In this document: in pieces, positions 4,823 to 32,855 of the stretch | Numbering within the stretch: position 1 is the first letter of the stretch | Layout: the number at the start of each line of letters is the position of its first letter | From: Kineococcus siccus | GTDB taxonomy: Bacteria; Actinomycetota; Actinomycetes; Actinomycetales; Kineococcaceae | Assembly: GCF_009906795.1 (NCBI RefSeq) | Contig: NZ_JAAALN010000012.1 | Location: 1 to 40,842, forward strand | Length of the DNA stretch: 40,842 bases | Direction: 5' to 3' | Notes under the pieces: model-generated | Seen by the model: only the letters and a program-made list of their open reading frames with translations | Database searches by the model: none | What the model was told of the DNA's origin: nothing | Program-made: the position numbers and the translations under genes

Positions 4823-8046
<3,224 letters not shown>

Positions 8047-8281
8047 CGTCCACTCCTCGCACAAGTGCATCAGCCACCTGCGAGGACGACTCCCGCCGGG
8101 TCCGGCGGTGCCGCGGTACCACCCCGCTTGCCGTCGTCCCCGCTCCCCGGCGCAGCGGGTGACGGCGACGACGACCGCTCGTCGCCCGGCTGTCACGGGC
8201 CGGACCCGTCCGGTTCTACTCAGGCCGCGGACGGCCCGTTCTTCCGGAGGCTCGCCGGTGATGGCCGGGTCGACGCCTGTG
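8047..8281 (-). ncRNA. T-box riboswitch leader of ileS, translational type, Ile (AUC) specifier
   Basis: On the minus strand the leader carries the T-box core GGGGTGGTACCGCGG (8125-8111), which base-pairs with the uncharged tRNA acceptor end. Upstream, GGCCATCACCGGCG presents an ATC specifier codon (8262-8260) followed by GAGCCTCCGGAAGAACGG, as in the short stem-I ileS T-boxes of Actinobacteria. Just before the gene, TCCTCGCA (8086-8079) is fully complementary to TGCGAGGA (8061-8054), which holds the Shine-Dalgarno sequence. An alternative pairing GGACGAC (8139-8133) with GTCGTCC (8090-8084) would release the SD. There is no terminator U-run, so control is probably of translation initiation. 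The 5' end is inferred from the -10 box. Confidence 0.88.
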
Positions 8282-8287
8282 CGGACG

Positions 8288-8293
8288 AGTCTA
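8288..8293 (-). promoter_or_regulatory. ileS: candidate -10 box of ileS T-box operon
   Basis: TAGACT on the minus strand lies about 7 nt upstream of the inferred T-box leader 5' end. It resembles the TAnnnT -10 boxes of actinobacterial housekeeping promoters. No clear -35 is visible. Confidence 0.45.
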
Positions 8294-8366
8294 ACCGCGG
8301 CGGGGACCCGGGGCTTCCCGGTTCCCCGCGGCGTCCGAGGTCGGCGGTGCCTCGACCCCCTCCGTT

Positions 8367-8399
8367 GGTACGATCATTTAGCTCGAGGTGAGACGTACC
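8367..8399. promoter_or_regulatory. promoter region and inverted repeat upstream of fic
   Basis: GGTACG (8367-8372) and CGTACC (8394-8399) form an inverted repeat around an AT-richer stretch, ending 14 bp before the fic start. TACGAT at 8369-8374 could be a -10 box. The repeat may be an operator, but this is only a suggestion. The rest of the 8294-8413 interval shows nothing I can assign. Confidence 0.3.
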
Positions 8400-8413
8400 A
8401 GGACGGAGGACGG

Positions 8414-9415
8414 GTGAGTCGCGGACGACCGACGCGCGCCACCGTGTACCGGCGGCTCGACACCGCGATCACCGACCTGCGGGACCGGCTGGGCGGACTG
8501 CCCACACCCGAGGAGGCTTCCGCCGTCTGGGTGGACATCTGGCACCTCGAAGCCCACCACTCCACCGCTCTCGAGGGGAACACGCTCGTCCTGCGTGAGG
8601 TGGAGCAGTTGCTCGAGCAACGCCGGCCGGTCGGCCGCAAGCCCTTGAAGGAGTACCTCGAGGTTCAGGGCTACGCCACGGCGGCGCAGTGGGTGTACGC
8701 CCAGGGACACGACCGGCAGCGCCACGAGCACCTCATCGTCCTCGACGAGCTGCGGCACATCCACCACCTGGCGATGTCGCCGGTGTGGGCGGTGGCCCCC
8801 CACGAGCACGCCACCGCCGACGAGAGCCCGGGGAACTTCCGACGCCACGACATCGCCCCCTTCGCCAACGGGATGACGCCGCCGAGCTGGCCGCTGGTCG
8901 AGGCCGACCTGCAGCAGTGGGTCACGGAGGCGTGCAACCTGGCGACGCAGGTCGACGATGCGCCTTGGCCGGAGCGGGTGGCGGAGGTCCACGCCGCCTT
9001 CGAGCGGGTGCACCCCTTCCTCGACGGCAACGGGCGCACGGGACGGCTCGCCCTCAACCTCATCCTGGTCCGACTCGGTCAGCCGCCCGTCATCGTGCTC
9101 AAGCAGCAACGCCCGGCGTACCTGGGCGCACTCGCGAAAGCGGACGCAGGCGACCCGGGCCCACTCGGAGAGATCGTCGCGCGCGCGATCACCGACAACC
9201 TGCACCGGTTCATCATCCCGAGCGTCGCCGGCCCGGCGCGCATGGTGCCCCTGCCTGCGCTCGTCACCCCCGAGGTGACTCTCATCGCCCTGCGTCACGC
9301 AGCGCGCCGGGGCCGTCTCGAAGCCCACCAGGACGCCGACGGCACCTGGCGCAGCTCACGGCGAGCCGTGGACCGGTACCTCAGCACGCGGTTCCGTCGC
9401 GCCCGGCCGACCTGA
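8414..9415 (+). CDS. Fic-domain protein (probable AMP transferase), N-terminally inhibited class
   Basis: A 333-residue Fic protein. The catalytic motif HPFLDGNGRTGR is at 200-211 and matches HPFx[D/E]GNGRxxR exactly, so nucleotide transfer (usually AMP from ATP to a protein hydroxyl) should be possible. Residues 50-55, STALEG, match the (S/T)xxxE(G/N) inhibitory helix motif located N-terminal to the Fic core (class II), whose Glu blocks productive ATP binding; Fic enzymes of this class often switch between AMPylation and deAMPylation. A Fic_N-like region covers about 35-110, and a small winged-helix-like segment lies at about 285-330. The GTG start has GGAGGA at 8405-8410 with short spacing. 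It is divergent from ileS and convergent with the exporter gene. The target is unknown. Confidence 0.9.
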   Translation: MSRGRPTRATVYRRLDTAITDLRDRLGGLPTPEEASAVWVDIWHLEAHHSTALEGNTLVLREVEQLLEQRRPVGRKPLKEYLEVQGYATAAQWVYAQGHDRQRHEHLIVLDELRHIHHLAMSPVWAVAPHEHATADESPGNFRRHDIAPFANGMTPPSWPLVEADLQQWVTEACNLATQVDDAPWPERVAEVHAAFERVHPFLDGNGRTGRLALNLILVRLGQPPVIVLKQQRPAYLGALAKADAGDPGPLGEIVARAITDNLHRFIIPSVAGPARMVPLPALVTPEVTLIALRHAARRGRLEAHQDADGTWRSSRRAVDRYLSTRFRRARPT

Positions 9416-9534: not shown

Positions 9535-11913
9535 TCAGCGACCGAGCTCGACCTGCGTGGCCGCCGTGGCGTCCTCCTCGACGTCCACGCTCGTGGCGAC
9601 CGGGGCGTAGCCGGACGCGGTGAGCGTGTACTGCCCGCCGGGCAGGTCGGAGAAGGCGTAGGCGCCCTGGTCGTCGGTCACCGCGGCCGCGACGACCTCG
9701 CCGTGCGCGTCCAGGAGCGTCACCGACGCCTCGCGGACGCGGCGGCCGTCGCTGGCGGCGACGACGGTGCCCGTCAGGCGGCCCCCGCCGGTCAGCTGCA
9801 GGTCGCAGGTCAGGCCTCCGCTGTCGGGGATCTCGACGCTGCGGGCCAGCGGTCGGTGCGCGTCGCTCTGCACCGTCAGGACGAAGCGGCCGCCGAGCAG
9901 CTGGGCGAAGGCGTAGCCGCCGTTCGCGTCGCTGCGCGTGGAACCGACCACCTCGCCGGTGACGTCGGTGAGGGTCACCAGCGCCCCGGCGACGGGCGCC
10001 GCCGTGCCGGTCCCGGGCTCGCGGCTGCCGACGACGCCGGCGATCGAGGCCCGCCCGGACAGCGGGACGTCGTGGTGCACCGAGGTCGAAGCCACGGCGA
10101 CGAGCGTCGCCGACGGCTGGACGTGCGCGGCCGCGACGATCAGCAGGTACGTCCCGCCGGTCGGGAGGGCGAGGACGTAGGAGCCGTCCGCCCCGGTGCC
10201 CGTCCGCGTCACCTGCCGGCCGGTCTGGTCGGTCAGGGTGACCACCGCACCCGCGAGGGGCCGGCCGCCGGACTGCCGCACGGTCCCCGAGATCGTGAGG
10301 CCGGCGTCGCTGCGCGCGGCCTGGGTGGGCACGGTCGCGGCGGCCGCCCCGTCCGCCTCGGCGGTGCCGGAGGGCGCGTGCGCCGCCCCGGGGACGTCGG
10401 TGGAGGCGGCGACGTCCGCCGCGTCGACCCCGGGCTGCGGCACGCCGCGGCGCAGCAGCAGGAAGGACAGCACGGCGCCCGCGGCGAAGATGCCGGCCGA
10501 CCACCAGAACGCCGTGTGGTAGCTCGCGAGGGTGGCCTGCGCGAGCTGCCCGGGCGTCGGCTGCCCGCTCACGTTGTCGGCGATCCAGTTCGTGGCCGCC
10601 GTCCCCGCGAAGGCGCTCAGCAGGGCCGTGCCGATCGAGCCGCCGATCTGCTGGGTCGTGTTCGCCATGGCCGAGGCGACCCCGGCGTCGTCGGCGCGCA
10701 CGCCCAGCGTGGCGGTCGCCATCGCGGCGGAGAACACGAACCCGAGCCCGACGCCCTGCACGAGCAGGCCGGGCAGGATCGTCGAGGCGTAGGGGGAGTC
10801 CAGCTCGATGCGCGTGAGCAGCACCATGCCGACCGCGGCGAGCAGCGCGCCCGTGCTGATGACGGGGCGCGGGCCGAAGCGGGCCAGCAGCGGTCCGCCG
10901 AGCAGCGCGGCCGCGACGGAGATCGCGGCGATCATCGGCAGGAACGCCAGGCCGGTCTGCACGGGGCTGTAGCCGAGGCTGTTCGACATGTAGTAGGTCA
11001 GGAACAGGAAGACGCCGAACATACCGGCGCCCGTGACGGCCAGGGCGAGGAGCGAACCGCCACGGTTGCGGTCCAGGACGATCCGCAGGGGCAGCAGCGG
11101 GTGCGCCACCCGGCGCTGCAGCACGACGAAGACGACCAGGACCACGACGCCCGCGGCCAGGAACCCCCACGTGGTCGGGCTCGACCAGCCGTCGGACTCG
11201 GCGTTGGCGAGGCCGTAGACGACGCCGACGAGACCGAGGACCGCCGTGACGGTGCCCCACCAGTCCAGGACGGGGCGCTCCTTGGAGCGGTCGTTCGTCA
11301 GCAGCAGGACACCGGCCGCGACGGCGAAGACGGCCAGCACGACGTTGATGTAGAGGCACCAGCGCCAGGACAGGTGCTCGGTGAGCAGGCCCCCGAGCAG
11401 CAGCCCGATCCCACCGCCGGCGCCGGCCACGGCCCCGAAGACGGAGAACGCCTTCGTCCGCATCCGCGGGTCCGTGAACGTGGTGGTCAGCAGAGACAGG
11501 GCCGCCGGCGCGAGCATCGCGCCGAACGCGCCCTGCAGCGCGCGGGCCACGATCAGCGTCCCGAACCCCTCGGCGGCGCCGCCCAGGGCGGAGGAGGCGG
11601 CGAAGCCGACCAGGCCGACGAGGAACATCAGCTTGCGGCCCAGCAGGTCCGACAGCCGGCCGCCGAGCAGCAGGAGGCTGCCGAAGGCCAGCGCGTAGGA
11701 CGTGACGACCCACTGGCGGTCCTCGTCGGAGAACCCGAGGTCCCGCTGGGCCGTGGGCAGCGCGATGTTCACGATGGTCGCGTCGAGCACGACCATCAGC
11801 TGCGCGAGGCAGAGGACCGCGAGCACGACCCACTTCGCGCGCGAGGATCCGGGGTCGCCGCCGGCGTCGGCGGCGTCGTCGCGGGCGACCGCCACGGGCG
11901 CGGGAGTCTGCAT
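9535..11913 (-). CDS. DHA2 (EmrB/QacA-type) 14-TM MFS exporter with three-repeat transthyretin/carboxypeptidase-regulatory-like tail
   Basis: A 792-residue protein. Residues 1-25 are a short cytoplasmic lead, and about 26-488 form a DHA2 drug/proton antiporter unit with 14 predicted TMs, including LDATIVNIALP in TM1 and GGRLSDLLGRK (motif A). Family members export drugs, lipids or other amphiphiles. Residues about 489-535 are a linker, and about 536-792 contain three tandem beta-sandwich-like repeats (each G.V.....G.P..GA.VTL.D..G..V....T..DG.Y.F....G.Y.L.), typical of carboxypeptidase-regulatory/transthyretin-like modules. With 14 TMs and an inside N-terminus, the tail should be cytoplasmic. 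ATG at 11913 has SD GGAGG 7 nt upstream. It is divergent from a TetR gene that probably represses it. The tail closely matches that of the exporter at 29374-31932. Confidence 0.9.
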   Translation of the reverse strand: MQTPAPVAVARDDAADAGGDPGSSRAKWVVLAVLCLAQLMVVLDATIVNIALPTAQRDLGFSDEDRQWVVTSYALAFGSLLLLGGRLSDLLGRKLMFLVGLVGFAASSALGGAAEGFGTLIVARALQGAFGAMLAPAALSLLTTTFTDPRMRTKAFSVFGAVAGAGGGIGLLLGGLLTEHLSWRWCLYINVVLAVFAVAAGVLLLTNDRSKERPVLDWWGTVTAVLGLVGVVYGLANAESDGWSSPTTWGFLAAGVVVLVVFVVLQRRVAHPLLPLRIVLDRNRGGSLLALAVTGAGMFGVFLFLTYYMSNSLGYSPVQTGLAFLPMIAAISVAAALLGGPLLARFGPRPVISTGALLAAVGMVLLTRIELDSPYASTILPGLLVQGVGLGFVFSAAMATATLGVRADDAGVASAMANTTQQIGGSIGTALLSAFAGTAATNWIADNVSGQPTPGQLAQATLASYHTAFWWSAGIFAAGAVLSFLLLRRGVPQPGVDAADVAASTDVPGAAHAPSGTAEADGAAAATVPTQAARSDAGLTISGTVRQSGGRPLAGAVVTLTDQTGRQVTRTGTGADGSYVLALPTGGTYLLIVAAAHVQPSATLVAVASTSVHHDVPLSGRASIAGVVGSREPGTGTAAPVAGALVTLTDVTGEVVGSTRSDANGGYAFAQLLGGRFVLTVQSDAHRPLARSVEIPDSGGLTCDLQLTGGGRLTGTVVAASDGRRVREASVTLLDAHGEVVAAAVTDDQGAYAFSDLPGGQYTLTASGYAPVATSVDVEEDATAATQVELGR

Positions 11914-11959
11914 GGGAGGGCCTCCAGATGACGCGGAGACCTCTTCTCCGCTTCGGCCG

Positions 11960-12000
11960 AGAGTAGCAGCCGAACTTGAGCAAGCACCTCCGCTTGTGCG
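11960..12000. promoter_or_regulatory. divergent promoter / candidate TetR operator between exporter and tetR
   Basis: CAAGC (11981-11985) and GCTTG (11992-11996) form an inverted repeat with 6-nt spacing, overlapping two smaller ones: CTTGAGCAAG (11975-11984 region) and CCGCTTGTGCGG (11990-12001 region). TACTCT on the minus strand (11965-11960) is a candidate -10 for the exporter. The cluster of nested palindromes between divergent genes is the usual place for a TetR operator. Confidence 0.5.
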
Positions 12001-12016
12001 GTCTACGCTGACCCGG

Positions 12017-12739
12017 GTGAGCGAACGACTCCCCCGCGCGGACGCGGGCCCCGCCGGGCCACCGGCCGCCGCGCCGGGACCGGCCGAGGCCTGCCGGCCC
12101 CTGCGCCGCGACGCGGAGCGCAACCGCCGGCGACTGCTCGACGCGGCCCGGGAGGTCTTCGCCGACCGCGGGTTCGCCGCGACCCTCGACGACGTCGCCC
12201 ACGCCGCGGGCCTGGGCGTCGGCACGGTCTACCGCCGCTTCCCGGACAAGGACGCGCTCGTCGAGGCCCTGTTCGAGGAGCGCATCACGGGGCTCGTCGA
12301 GCTCGCGGAGCACGCCGCGCAGGCCGAGGACGCCTGGACCGGCCTGGCCGGCTTCCTCGAGGCGGCCAGCCGGCTCATGGCCGAGGACCGCGGCCTGCGC
12401 CAGGCGGTGATGTCCCCGCTGCACGGGCGCGCGGGCGTGGCGCTGGCCCGCGGCCAGCTCGTCCCCCGCGTGGAGTGGCTGCTGCAGCGGGCGCGGGACA
12501 GCGGCCAGCTGCGCGCCGACGTCGCCTCGAGCGACGTCGTGACGGTGCTGGAGGCGGTGCAGGTGGCGGCGGAGATCGGCGGCACGGCCCACCCGGAGCA
12601 CTGGCGCCGGCTGTTCGCGGTGCTGCTCGACGGCCTGCGTCCCCCGCCCGGTGGCCACCCGGACCTGCCGGGGGCCCCCCTGAGCGAGGAGGAGCTCGAC
12701 CGGGCGATGCGCCTGCGCAAGCACGGCCGTCGCGACTGA
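12017..12739 (+). CDS. TetR/AcrR-family transcriptional regulator
   Basis: A 240-residue regulator. A Pro/Ala-rich lead of about 30 residues precedes the TetR_N domain (about 33-90: RRRLLDAAREVFADRGFAATLDDVAHAAGLGVGTVYRRFPDKDALVEALF), with the helix-turn-helix at about 55-76. The C-terminal two thirds is the helical ligand/dimer domain. It is divergent from the DHA2 exporter with a palindrome-rich 103-bp gap, so it probably represses that exporter and itself until a ligand binds; this is inferred from arrangement. The GTG at 12017 is chosen; a GTG at 11996 in the same frame would add seven residues but would place the start inside the operator. A hairpin terminator follows. Confidence 0.88.
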   Translation: MSERLPRADAGPAGPPAAAPGPAEACRPLRRDAERNRRRLLDAAREVFADRGFAATLDDVAHAAGLGVGTVYRRFPDKDALVEALFEERITGLVELAEHAAQAEDAWTGLAGFLEAASRLMAEDRGLRQAVMSPLHGRAGVALARGQLVPRVEWLLQRARDSGQLRADVASSDVVTVLEAVQVAAEIGGTAHPEHWRRLFAVLLDGLRPPPGGHPDLPGAPLSEEELDRAMRLRKHGRRD

Positions 12740-28276: not shown

Positions 28277-28705
28277 ATGGTGAGCGGACCCGGTGAGCAG
28301 CTCGAGCGCGAGCTGGCAGTGCTGCTGCGCAGGTCGCGCGCGATCTCCCGGGAGACGGCCCGCTCCGTCCACCCGGACCTGGAGGCGGAGGCGTACAGCC
28401 TGCTCGTGCGCCTGGACGACACGGGCGACGCCCGCCCCTCCGACCTCGCGACCTTCTTCGGGATCGGCAAGCCCACGCTCAGCCGCCAGGTGCAGATGCT
28501 CGAGCGGCTGGGGCTGGTAGAGCGGACCGCCGACCCCTCCGACGGCCGCGCGGTCCGCCTGGCCCTGTCCGCGACGGGTCGTGACCGGGTCCACGCCGCG
28601 CGCCAGGCGCGCCGCGAGCGGCTGCGGGACCGGCTGCGCGACTGGAGCCAGGAGGACATCGCCCAGCTGGCGGGCCTGGTCGGCCGGCTCAACGCCAGCC
28701 TCTAG
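28277..28705 (+). CDS. MarR-family transcriptional regulator (first copy)
   Basis: A 142-residue MarR regulator. Helices in the first 35 residues begin the dimer region. The winged helix is at about 38-105: RPSDLATFFGIGKPTLSRQVQMLERLGLVERTADPSDGRAVRLALSATG, with the DGR wing signature. The last helices close the dimer domain. The ATG at 28277 follows a palindrome closely, and no strong RBS is seen, so a short leader is likely. It is separated from the second MarR gene by 150 bp on the same strand. It is only distantly similar to that second MarR protein, so recent duplication is not evident. Its target is not clear; the palindrome suggests self-regulation. Confidence 0.88.
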   Translation: MVSGPGEQLERELAVLLRRSRAISRETARSVHPDLEAEAYSLLVRLDDTGDARPSDLATFFGIGKPTLSRQVQMLERLGLVERTADPSDGRAVRLALSATGRDRVHAARQARRERLRDRLRDWSQEDIAQLAGLVGRLNASL

Positions 28706-28788: not shown

Positions 28789-28838
28789 GGTTGCATGCTG
28801 CAACCATCCGCGTCTATGGTTGCTTGCACACACCAACC
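28789..28838 (+). promoter_or_regulatory. promoter and candidate MarR operators of the marR-exporter-yceI operon
   Basis: A -35-like TTGCAT (28791-28796) and a -10-like TATGGT (28815-28820) are 18 bp apart. GGTTGCATGCTGCAACC (28789-28805; 7-nt exact arms, 3-nt spacer) covers the -35. A second pair, GGTTG (28818-28822) and CAACC (28834-28838), covers the -10 and start region. Repressor binding at both would block the promoter. Confidence 0.6.
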
Positions 28839-28855
28839 TCGATGCGAAGGTCGCC

Positions 28856-29377
28856 ATGGCCACTCCGTCCGCCTGCGCCGGGCTCGTGGAGGTCCTCCCC
28901 CGCCTCCTGCGGGCCCGCCGCTCCCTCGTCGGCACGACGCCCGCCCCCGCGACGGCGACCCTGGCCGCGGTCCGCGACGGCGGCGCCCCCCGGCTCTCGG
29001 AGGTCGCCGAGCTCCTCGGCCTCGACCTCTCCACCGTCAGCCGGCAGGTGGCGCACCTGCGCCAGCGCGGGCTGCTCACCGCCGCCCCCGACCCGCAGGA
29101 CGGCCGCTCGCAGCGCCTCAGCCTCACCGAGGCGGGTGCCGCCGAGCTCCGGTGGCACCGGCGCGCGCTGGTCGAGACCCTCGTCACCAGGCTCGCCGAC
29201 TGGGACGACGCGGAGATCGACCGGTTGACGCAGCTGCTGGACCGCTTCGCCCGCTCCGGTGACCCCGGGACGGGCGCGACCTGCGCCGAGCCCGCCGCGT
29301 GCCGAGCCACCGCCGCTCCCGCCCCGCACACCCCGCCCGCCGACCACCCCGGGCACCACCTGCAGAGGAACGCATGA
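28856..29377 (+). CDS. MarR-family transcriptional regulator (operon head)
   Basis: A 173-residue MarR protein. The winged helix is at about 40-110 (PRLSEVAELLGLDLSTVSRQVAHLRQRGLLTAAPDPQDGRSQRLSLTEAG). After the dimerisation helices the C-terminus has an extra Pro/Ala/His-rich tail of about 35 residues. The ATG at 28856 has GAAGG upstream; an upstream in-frame ATG at 28820 overlaps the -10 box and is unlikely. The stop overlaps the exporter start in ATGA (29374-29377). It probably represses its own operon, with a ligand related to the exported substrate; inferred from arrangement and from the palindromes at the promoter. Confidence 0.88.
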   Translation: MATPSACAGLVEVLPRLLRARRSLVGTTPAPATATLAAVRDGGAPRLSEVAELLGLDLSTVSRQVAHLRQRGLLTAAPDPQDGRSQRLSLTEAGAAELRWHRRALVETLVTRLADWDDAEIDRLTQLLDRFARSGDPGTGATCAEPAACRATAAPAPHTPPADHPGHHLQRNA

Positions 29378-31932
29378 CCACCACCGCACCGCCCCACGCG
29401 CAGCACGTCGCCCACACCGCGCCCAGGCCCATGTCGCACCAGCAGGTCCTCGAGGCGCTCTCGGGCCTGCTGCTCGGCATGTTCGTCGCGATCCTGTCCT
29501 CGACGGTCGTCTCCAACGCGCTGCCCACCATCGTCGAGGACCTCGACGGCACCGAGTCGGGCTACACCTGGGTGGTCACGGCCGCCCTGCTGGCCACGAC
29601 GATCTCGACGCCCATCTGGGGCAAGCTCGCGGACCTCTTCGACAAGAAGGTCCTCGTCCAGGTCGCCCTCGTCCTGTTCGTCGTCGCCTCCGCCATCGCG
29701 GGCCTGTCCCAGAGCATGGGCATGCTCATCACGATGCGCGTCTTCCAGGGCATCGGCGGGGGCGGGCTCATCGCGCTGGCGCAGGTGATCCTGGCGACCA
29801 TCGTCGCGCCGCGCGAGCGCGGGCGGTACTCCGGCTACCTCGGCGCGACCTTCGCCCTCGCGACGGTCGGCGGGCCCCTCATCGGCGGTGTCCTGACCCA
29901 GCACCTGTCCTGGCACTGGTGCTTCTACGTCGGCGTCCCGTTCGCCCTGCTGGCCTTCGTCGTCCTGCAGTTCAAGCTCAAGCTGCCGCCGACGCCGCGC
30001 CGCGAGGTCCACATCGACTACCTCGGCGCCACGCTGATCGCGCTCGGCATCTCCGCCCTGCTCATCTGGGTCTCGCTCGGGGGCCAGCAGTTCGACTGGG
30101 CCTCCTGGTGGACCGTCGGGCTCGTCGGCGGCGGCCTCGTCGTGCTGGCGCTCGCCGTGCTCGCCGAGAGCCGCGCCAAGGACCCGATCATCCCGCTCCG
30201 GTTCTTCCGCAGCCGGACCGTCACCATCGCCGCGGTCGCGAGCCTCTTCGTCGGCATCGGCCTGTTCACCGCGACGATCTTCCTCAGCCAGTACTTCCAG
30301 CTGGCGCGCGGCGAGAGCCCGACGATGTCCGGCGTCATGACGATCCCGATGATCGCGGGCCTGGTCCTGGCCTCGACCGTGGCGGGGCAGTTCATCACCC
30401 GCACCGGGCGCTGGAAGGGCTGGGTCGTCGCGGGCGGCGTCCTGCTCACCGCGGGCCTGGGCCTGATGGGCACCGTCGAGTGGGACACCGACTACTGGAC
30501 CGTGGCGCCGTGGATGGCCCTCATCGGGCTGGGCGTCGGCATGATGATGCAGAACCTCGTGCTCGCGGTGCAGAACGTCACCGCTCCCGAGGACCTCGGG
30601 TCGGCCAGCTCCCTGATCGCGTTCACCCGCACGCTCGGCGGCGCGATCGGCGTCTCCGCGCTCGGCGCCGTCCTCAGCCACCGCGTCGCCACGCACCTCG
30701 AGAGCGGCCTGCGCGACGCGGGGGTCCCCGCCTCGGCGCTCGGCTCCGGCAGCAGCACGGGCATCCCCGACCTCGACGCCCTCCCCGACGCGGTGCGGCC
30801 CCTCGTGCAGGCCGCCTACGGCTCCTCGATCGCCGAGGTCTTCCTCATCGCGGCCCCGTTCGCGCTCGTCGCCCTCGTCCTGACGCTCTTCTTCAAGGAG
30901 GTCGCCCTGCGCGGCGCCGGCAGCAGCACCACCCGGACGGCCGAGGCCGCCGTGACGGCCGTCCCCGCCGACGTCGGCGCGGGTCTGCCGTCCGCCGGCA
31001 CCGGCTCCGCGGCGGGCACCGGCTCCGGCCCCCGCCGGACCAACGGCACGGTGAACGGGACCGCCCGCGCCGCGCTCGACGGCGTCGCCGACGGCGGGGC
31101 CGACCACGGTGCCCGCGCCGGGACGGTCCCGGCGCAGTCCTCGCGGTCCGACGCTGGGCTCACGGTGTCCGGCGTCGTGCGCCACCACGACGGCCGGCTC
31201 CTGCCCGGGGCTGTCGTCACGCTCGCCGACCAGATGGGTCAGCAGGTCGCCCGCACGGCCACCGGGGCCGACGGCGACTACGTCCTGGCCCTGCCGACGG
31301 GGGGCACCTACCTCCTGATCGTGGCGGCCGCGCACGTCCAGCCGTCCGCGACGCTCGTGCCCGTGGGCAGCGCGTCGGTCCACCAGGACGTGGTGCTGTC
31401 CGGCCGCGCGTCCGTGACGGGGCGCGTCGTGGGCCGCGACGCCGTGAGCGGGTCCCTGGACCCGGTCCCGGGCGCGCTCGTGACGCTCACCGACATCACC
31501 GGTGAGGTCGTCGGCTCCACCCGCAGCGACGGGGCCGGGGGCTTCGCGTTCGCCCAGCTCATGGGCGGCAGCTACGTCCTGACGGCCCAGAGCGAGGCGC
31601 ACCGCCCGCTCGCCCGCAGCGTGGACGTGCCCGACAGCGGCGGCCTGACGTGCGACCTGCAGCTGAGCGGTGGTGGTCGCCTGACCGGGACCGTCGTCGC
31701 CGCCAGCGACGGCCGGCGCATCCGCGAGGCCTCCGTCACGCTCGTCGACGCCGAGGGCGACGTCGTCGCCGCGGCGGTCACCGACGAGGACGGCACCTAC
31801 TCCTTCGAAGACCTGGCGGGCGGGCACTACACGCTGACGGCGGCGGGCTACGCGCCCGTCGCGACGAGCGTCGACGTCGAGGAGGACAGCGTCGCGGCCG
31901 CGCAGCTGGAGCTCGGGAGCCGTCACGCATGA
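29374..31932 (+). CDS. DHA2 (EmrB/QacA-type) 14-TM MFS exporter with three-repeat transthyretin/carboxypeptidase-regulatory-like tail
   Basis: An 852-residue protein. Residues 1-28 are cytoplasmic, and about 29-507 form a 14-TM DHA2 unit (14 hydrophobic segments counted; GKLADLFDKK motif A; RVFQGIGGGGLIALAQ; long loop before TM14), a proton-driven exporter of amphiphilic compounds. Residues about 508-590 are a low-complexity Gly/Ser/Thr linker. About 592-680, 681-768 and 768-852 are three tandem beta-sandwich repeats like those of carboxypeptidase-regulatory/transthyretin modules. The tail is strikingly similar to that of the exporter at 9535-11913, more so than the membrane parts. Both ends are ATGA overlaps (with marR at 29374 and yceI at 31929), so the three genes are translationally coupled. 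By topology the tail should face the cytoplasm. Confidence 0.92.
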   Translation: MTTTAPPHAQHVAHTAPRPMSHQQVLEALSGLLLGMFVAILSSTVVSNALPTIVEDLDGTESGYTWVVTAALLATTISTPIWGKLADLFDKKVLVQVALVLFVVASAIAGLSQSMGMLITMRVFQGIGGGGLIALAQVILATIVAPRERGRYSGYLGATFALATVGGPLIGGVLTQHLSWHWCFYVGVPFALLAFVVLQFKLKLPPTPRREVHIDYLGATLIALGISALLIWVSLGGQQFDWASWWTVGLVGGGLVVLALAVLAESRAKDPIIPLRFFRSRTVTIAAVASLFVGIGLFTATIFLSQYFQLARGESPTMSGVMTIPMIAGLVLASTVAGQFITRTGRWKGWVVAGGVLLTAGLGLMGTVEWDTDYWTVAPWMALIGLGVGMMMQNLVLAVQNVTAPEDLGSASSLIAFTRTLGGAIGVSALGAVLSHRVATHLESGLRDAGVPASALGSGSSTGIPDLDALPDAVRPLVQAAYGSSIAEVFLIAAPFALVALVLTLFFKEVALRGAGSSTTRTAEAAVTAVPADVGAGLPSAGTGSAAGTGSGPRRTNGTVNGTARAALDGVADGGADHGARAGTVPAQSSRSDAGLTVSGVVRHHDGRLLPGAVVTLADQMGQQVARTATGADGDYVLALPTGGTYLLIVAAAHVQPSATLVPVGSASVHQDVVLSGRASVTGRVVGRDAVSGSLDPVPGALVTLTDITGEVVGSTRSDGAGGFAFAQLMGGSYVLTAQSEAHRPLARSVDVPDSGGLTCDLQLSGGGRLTGTVVAASDGRRIREASVTLVDAEGDVVAAAVTDEDGTYSFEDLAGGHYTLTAAGYAPVATSVDVEEDSVAAAQLELGSRHA

Positions 31933-32786
31933 GCTCGACGCCCGACGCCCGCGTCTCCCCGGCCGTCCGCGGGGCCACCGGCGGCGCCACGGCGACCGGC
32001 CGCGTGCTGACCCGTGAGGGCTGGCCCGTGGGCGGAGCCTCCGTCACGCTGCTGAGCGCCGAGGGCCGTCAGGTCGGCCGCGCGGTCAGCGCCGGTGACG
32101 GCAGCGTGCTGCTGCAGGACGTCCCGCCGGGCCCGGCCACGCTGCTGGTGGCCGCTCCGGGCCACGACCCGAAGGCCAGCACCGTCGTGGTGCCCGCCGG
32201 GTCCTGGCCGCTGGGCGACCTCCGCCTGGTGCGTCACGGCGCCTCCCCGACGCCCGCCCCGGGCATCTGGGTCATCGACGTGGCGCACTCCTCGATCACC
32301 GCGACCGCGCACCACCTCGGCCTTTCGGCGGTGCACGGGCGGTTCACCTCGTTCACGGGCGCCATCACGGTGCCCGACGACGTCAGCCGCTCCCACGTCG
32401 AGGTCGACATCGACGCGACGTCGATCGACACCGGCAACCGGATGCGCGACGACCACCTGCGGGCCGCCGACTTCCTCGACGTCGCCCGCCACCCCAGCAT
32501 CCGCTTCGCCTCGAGCGGCCTCACCCGCGCCGACGGCGGGGCGTGGCTGCTGGACGGGGACCTCACGCTGCTCGCGACCACGCGCCCCGTGCAGCTGCGG
32601 ATGACCTACACGGGGTCCGGCCCGGACCCGTGGGGCGGGACCCGCGCGGCCTTCTCCGCCACCGCCGAGCTGCGCCGCGACGACTTCGAGATGAACTGGA
32701 ACCAGGCCATCGGTGTCGGCGTCACGGTCTTCGGCACGACGCTCAAGGTCGCCATCGACCTCGAGGCGCTGCTGCAGGAGACCTGA
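31929..32786 (+). CDS. YceI-family lipid-binding protein with N-terminal carboxypeptidase-regulatory-like module
   Basis: A 285-residue protein. Residues about 20-102 form one module (TGRVLTREGWPVGGASVTLLSAEGRQVGRAV...LLVAAPGHDPKASTVVVPAG) related to the repeats on the adjacent exporter. A short Pro-rich linker leads to a YceI domain (about 113-285: WVIDVAHSSITATAHHLGLSAVHGRFTSFTG, SIDTGNRMRDDHLRAADFLD). YceI proteins are lipocalin-like barrels that bind isoprenoids or other amphiphiles and are usually secreted; this one has no signal peptide, so it should be cytoplasmic. It overlaps the exporter by 4 nt (ATGA). A carrier that presents substrate to the exporter is a reasonable hypothesis. The operon ends at a 21-bp-arm hairpin. 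Confidence 0.92.
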   Translation: MSSTPDARVSPAVRGATGGATATGRVLTREGWPVGGASVTLLSAEGRQVGRAVSAGDGSVLLQDVPPGPATLLVAAPGHDPKASTVVVPAGSWPLGDLRLVRHGASPTPAPGIWVIDVAHSSITATAHHLGLSAVHGRFTSFTGAITVPDDVSRSHVEVDIDATSIDTGNRMRDDHLRAADFLDVARHPSIRFASSGLTRADGGAWLLDGDLTLLATTRPVQLRMTYTGSGPDPWGGTRAAFSATAELRRDDFEMNWNQAIGVGVTVFGTTLKVAIDLEALLQET

Positions 32787-32796
32787 GGACCGCGCG

Positions 32797-32838
32797 ACGA
32801 CGAAGGGCCCGTCCCCCGGGGGACGGGCCCTTCGTCGT
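32797..32838. terminator. long bidirectional terminator between yceI and clpX
   Basis: Two 21-nt arms (32797-32817 and 32818-32838) are exact complements, making a 42-bp perfect palindrome between convergent genes. It is the strongest hairpin in the window and should stop transcription from both sides. Confidence 0.85.
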
Positions 32839-32855
32839 GCGGTGCGGCGGCCGGC

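Follow-up and report, generated by a model that had tools for sequence, protein, structure and literature searches.

The stretch of DNA analysed here (40,842 nucleotides of a Kineococcus siccus contig, in the following called the window) harbours three plus-strand genes encoding a MarR-family repressor, a DHA2 exporter and a YceI-family lipocalin which overlap serially at two ATGA junctions. The TGA stop codon of marR (29375 to 29377) shares its ATGA with the exporter start codon ATG at 29374, and the stop codon of the exporter gene (31930 to 31932) shares a second one with the yceI start codon ATG at 31929. Both overlaps (29374–29377 and 31929–31932) had been noted in a preceding sequence-only reading of this DNA and are confirmed. 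At its end the operon is bordered by a terminator-like hairpin (32790 to 32842, plus strand; RNA fold −48.9 kcal/mol, z −6.3) which lies convergent with clpX. The genes adjoining the yceI locus are those of the exporter and MarR as well as clpX.

The marR gene (28856 to 29377, plus strand) is recognised by the Pfam profiles MarR_2 (7e-10) and MarR (1e-07). A longer open reading frame starts from TTG at 28820; judged from the sequence, however, ATG 28856 is the likelier start codon as it is preceded by an RBS-like GAAGG at 28846 and as most homologues align from about there. The putative operator and promoter region (28789 to 28823, no strand assigned) contains the palindrome GGTTGCA-TGC-TGCAACC (28789–28805) and a second one, GCAACCAT-N8-ATGGTTGC (28800–28823), both of which are overlapped by a promoter-like pair, TTGCAT-N18-TATGGT. 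Most of the Kineococcus and Streptomyces loci have a palindrome of the type GCAACCAw-N8-wTGGTTGC ahead of marR. The exact pattern occurs in a single copy in the K. siccus genome and once each in 19 of 198 genomes of the class, and within this search nearly every match in Streptomyces is located at the marR-exporter-yceI promoter. Likewise, GGTTGCANNNTGCAACC is unique in the K. siccus genome if up to one mismatch is allowed. The adjacency of a MarR gene and a conserved promoter palindrome characterises a MarR-controlled operon, and the MarR protein would bind to the palindrome upstream of its own gene. While marR is placed upstream of the exporter gene in Kineococcus and Streptomyces, at several further loci its place is behind yceI. 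A second MarR gene (28277–28705, plus strand) lies directly upstream of marR and stays beside the operon in most Kineococcus genomes.

The exporter (29374 to 31932, plus strand; 852 amino acids) scores above the curated cut-off of the NCBIfam DHA2/EmrB family TIGR00711 (259.4 versus 230.2 bits) and is matched by the Pfam profile MFS_1 with 2.1e-52. Its AlphaFold2 model, computed on alignments of relatives (pLDDT 87.5), features the 14 transmembrane helices of a DHA2 exporter, and the best Foldseek matches are EmrB (8zal), MHAS2168, EfpA and QacA. With EmrB, EfpA, QacA and Tcr3/OtrB it has the sequence family and the 14-helix fold in common, but it exceeds the DHA2 family by a linker and three transthyretin-like modules, and its operon is devoid of an EmrA-type adaptor. 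The low-complexity linker, which connects TM14 with the tail, comprises 76 residues (518–593; 30925 to 31152) and, with a mean pLDDT of 30–40 in the model, is probably disordered and flexible. It is followed by three CarboxypepD_reg modules, M1 to M3 (residues 596–847; 31159 to 31914, plus strand), which give three PF13620 matches (124.5 bits against a cut-off of 32.3) and are modelled by AlphaFold2 as three beta modules of transthyretin-like fold. The composition of 14 helices plus three C-terminal modules had been read correctly from the sequence. As the helix number is even at 14 and as the loops on the N-terminal side contain 17 Lys and Arg residues compared to 5 on the opposite side, the tail is predicted to be cytoplasmic, in agreement with the topology assumed before.

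The YceI protein (31929 to 32786, plus strand; 285 amino acids) is assigned to PF04264 (3.4e-42, 144.8 bits versus a cut-off of 23.7) and, as the earlier reading had it, carries one N-terminal module which is recognised by PF13620 (residues 23–91, 42.9 bits, 6.3e-11). The AlphaFold2 model (pLDDT 89) displays this module at residues 20–102 (31986 to 32234), followed by a lipocalin barrel (112–282). Foldseek identifies PA0423 (7bwl), E. coli YceI (1y0g) and TT1927b (1wub) as structural relatives (TMt 0.86–0.92), with which the barrel is shared at 33–35% identity; the fold resembles polyprenyl- and antibiotic-binding structures. Neither a signal peptide nor a hydrophobic N-terminus was found in the K. 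siccus protein or its orthologues, many of which begin just a few residues ahead of the module. The absence of a signal peptide had been anticipated, yet it is not the unusual trait it had been taken for: in a class-wide sample of 30 YceI proteins none possesses a hydrophobic N-terminus, and most actinomycete YceI proteins sampled are plain, cytosolic single domains, which rules it out as a special feature. The exporter tail and YceI are consequently predicted to reside in the same compartment, the cytoplasm, as had been supposed. Compared to YceI/BcnA lipocalins, the K. siccus protein is distinguished by its PF13620 module, its predicted cytoplasmic location and its tie to an MFS exporter. 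For BcnA, secretion and linkage to a gene for cytochrome b561 are described (PMC9113575), whereas the K. siccus protein has no hydrophobic N-terminus and its gene no cytochrome b561 neighbour. The module is retained in the YceI orthologues examined. Streptomyces possesses, in addition, YceI paralogues whose N-terminal module has diverged and whose genes have no exporter gene beside them (L088–L096).

A profile search, as proposed by the sequence-only reading, places both the exporter tail and the YceI N-terminus above the Pfam cut-offs for CarboxypepD_reg; the MarR, MFS_1 and YceI matches likewise exceed their gathering cut-offs. Genome-wide, nine PF13620 modules were found in K. siccus. Seven of them fall within the window (three in the exporter, three in a second exporter encoded at 9538–11907 and one in YceI), a clustering which exceeds chance. 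The modules share fold and Pfam family with CarboxypepD_reg, SdrD_B and SpaA transthyretin-like modules and DUF1416. Most solved relatives, however, are extracellular or surface proteins, while the modules described here reside on predicted cytoplasmic exporter tails, nearly always three per exporter: among the collected loci, which were picked by their likeness to the operon rather than sampled at random, a tail of exactly three modules was counted for 69 MFS exporters, one of two modules for two and a single module for one. In a tree of 274 modules, whose deep branches are weak given a module length of about 80 residues, M1, M2 and M3 group by position across transporters. The YceI modules form a clade of their own, nearest to M1. 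The claimed relatedness of tail and YceI modules holds at the level of the PF13620 family, but not in the sense of a recent copy; that the YceI module split off recently from the exporter tail is ruled out by its separate clade and its proximity to M1 instead of M3.

The operon is present in all 11 Kineococcus genomes searched (K. siccus included) and, furthermore, in Streptomyces, Sphaerisporangium, Actinomadura, Nocardioides and several other families of the class. The 4-nucleotide overlap of exporter gene and yceI recurs in all 11 Kineococcus loci, in G223 and in Sphaerisporangium, while the spacing elsewhere mostly amounts to 4 to about 320 nucleotides. That marR, exporter gene and yceI overlap in an operon which is conserved, as is the single palindrome in front of it, is shown or strongly predicted. 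Prediction and genome survey revealed neither an extracellular tail nor a YceI signal peptide nor a lack of conservation of the pair, which is kept in Kineococcus, Streptomyces, Streptosporangiales and Nocardioides. Module-bearing YceI, counted at E≤1e-60, is encoded by 37 of 395 genomes of the class, all 37 of which also encode a tailed exporter somewhere, compared to 16 of the 358 genomes without such a YceI (Fisher 1e-39, with Streptomyces dominating and the genomes not being independent). Exporter relatives were not found in viral contigs, and plasmids contained only distant YceI relatives (<60% identity). Among the loci no genuine natural exporter-YceI fusion was found; apparent fusions within long open frames of several loci were ruled out as high-GC read-through in another frame. 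In one locus (L111:6324-9809) the open frame of a tailed exporter continues into a DUF1622 membrane domain, which represents either a fusion or frame read-through.

The 82 close relatives of the exporter comprise 54 with both the tail and an adjacent YceI, 22 with neither, five with the tail only and one with YceI only. One of the five tail-only cases contains an intact tailed exporter gene beside a yceI decayed by internal deletions (L117:8540-8760). In the YceI-only case (G321/L083) a module-bearing YceI adjoins a tailless exporter. Several tailless relatives without YceI (L138, L174–L176, L178, L179) retain the same MarR and operator. The exporter tree demands at least 7 changes for the tail and at least 9 for YceI. 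In an independent-pairs test YceI follows the tail on average in 2.5 of three well-supported pairs and hardly ever behaves in the opposite way, although three pairs are too few for significance (median p 0.25). The tail thus tends to be absent together with yceI. Since both are adjacent in the DNA and may be removed by one deletion, their joint loss supports but does not prove a shared function.

Judged from its distribution, the three-module tail is portable: it is present on several DHA2 subgroups as well as on MMPL exporters and moves independently of the transporter. The second exporter in the window (9538 to 11907, minus strand), which has no YceI neighbour, shares 79% identity with the first one in its tail but only 29% in its MFS part. 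Its gene adjoins a divergent TetR-like regulator gene (ORF 11702–12739, plus strand), and an open reading frame with a Fic-like HPFxxGNGRxGR motif lies beside it (7934–9415, plus strand). In L060/L062 the MFS part is a member of another DHA2 subgroup (27% identity), yet its tail reaches 69% identity with the usual one, and YceI is encoded next to it. Two MMPL-family exporters, a family whose C-terminus is cytoplasmic, end in the same module triplet (L119:2024-5452 and L129:10476-13820), and a further protein bears three modules with neither evident transmembrane helices nor a signal peptide (L115:5097-6770); the latter is possibly a soluble partner or competitor. The distances of tail and YceI correlate with 0.89–0.94, in contrast to 0.27–0.37 for the MFS part with either of them. 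Since many tailed exporters, those of the MMPL family included, lack a YceI neighbour, YceI docking is not the tail's only function.

MarR-type control is common in the DHA2 family, EmrR being an example. An MFS multidrug pump under a MarR regulator which is induced by its drugs is known as SCO4121/SCO4122 from Streptomyces coelicolor (Nag and Mehra 2021, cited in PMC11632069 and PMC11944582 and described in the latter). In the pairing of pump and MarR regulator the two systems are alike, but the neighbour SCO4120 is described as a regulatory protein and not a YceI. SCO4024, considered as the S. coelicolor copy of the exporter, was ruled out on account of its neighbour SCO4023, a mannosyltransferase. 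A published account of the operon or the exporter tail was not found in the open-access full text searched, and the same literature yielded no described precedent for a carrier handing its cargo to a pump at the inner face of the membrane. DHA2 exporter and YceI lipocalin are each genuine by sequence and fold; their combination is undescribed in the literature searched.

The best, albeit tentative, explanation of the locus is that of an export unit under MarR control whose own cytosolic carrier docks on the exporter tail. MarR would sit on the palindrome and be released upon the appearance of an amphiphilic drug or metabolite, and the barrel of YceI would take up the same hydrophobic compound. 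The YceI module would lead the protein to the exporter tail, either directly or via a cluster of modules, so that the cargo might be concentrated at the cytoplasmic mouth of the exporter and then expelled. We infer docking and hand-over as well as the nature of the ligands of YceI and MarR. Such a hand-over is favoured by the occurrence of a tailed exporter in every genome with module-bearing YceI as opposed to few of the others, by tail and YceI evolving in step while the MFS part does not, and by their joint presence or absence among the 82 relatives. It is further favoured by the shared predicted compartment, with the same tail occurring on MMPL exporters, and by the 4-nucleotide overlaps in Kineococcus and two other genera, while the polyprenyl- and antibiotic-binding fold matches argue for a cargo-binding YceI. 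Against it count the many tails with no module-bearing YceI adjacent, the G321 module-bearing YceI beside a tailless exporter, the stand-alone module-bearing paralogues in Streptomyces and the lack of a particular closeness between the YceI module and any one module of the tails. The three-module tail might moreover serve several exporters as a general recruitment device, with those linked to YceI forming a subset. That it constitutes a recruitment code on DHA2 and MMPL pumps, with a lipocalin of matching module ferrying amphiphilic cargo, appears less probable to us.

The chief rival, which we consider rather unlikely, is homotypic clustering, where the tails of different exporters and the YceI module would bind one another, or else a third protein common to them, and YceI would be just one client. 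It accounts for the tails without YceI and accords with the block-wise inheritance of M1-M2-M3 in DHA2 subgroups and MMPL exporters alike, with the predicted soluble three-module protein and with the resemblance between tails of the same lineage, as seen for the two K. siccus paralogues and for L060, whose tail is 69% identical to Streptomyces tails at an MFS identity of 27%. This resemblance, however, may be due to nothing but recombination, there is no known partner, and the close association of yceI with a single type of exporter points to a relation of greater specificity. Less probable still is that YceI, by analogy to secreted BcnA, which traps antibiotics outside the cell, acts alone in the cytosol by sequestering the toxic compound of the exporter; the modules would then have unrelated tasks and the genes would be held together only by one inducing signal. 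That YceI lipocalins bind diverse antibiotics (PMC5350466), that plain cytosolic YceI proteins prevail in actinomycetes and that the G321 protein neighbours a tailless exporter agree with this, but the orthologues examined keep the module, and through exporter swaps the tail and YceI stay in step. A ligand- or stress-responsive gating or sensing function of the tail, with no docking site, would suit its presence on unrelated MMPL pumps and on exporters that lack YceI but is highly improbable, given the 76-residue low-confidence, probably disordered linker which parts it from the membrane domain and the tailless close relatives (L175, L138, L179) in which MarR and operator are nevertheless the same.

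The usual picture of a multidrug pump is that it picks up drugs from the membrane as chance brings them. If the docked-carrier explanation is true, a pump-docked cytosolic lipocalin would constitute a delivery route for hydrophobic compounds and, as the operon is present in Streptomyces, could be of relevance to self-resistance and the export of antibiotics. Finally, the portable tail connects DHA2 and MMPL pumps and provides a sequence handle towards their cytosolic partners.
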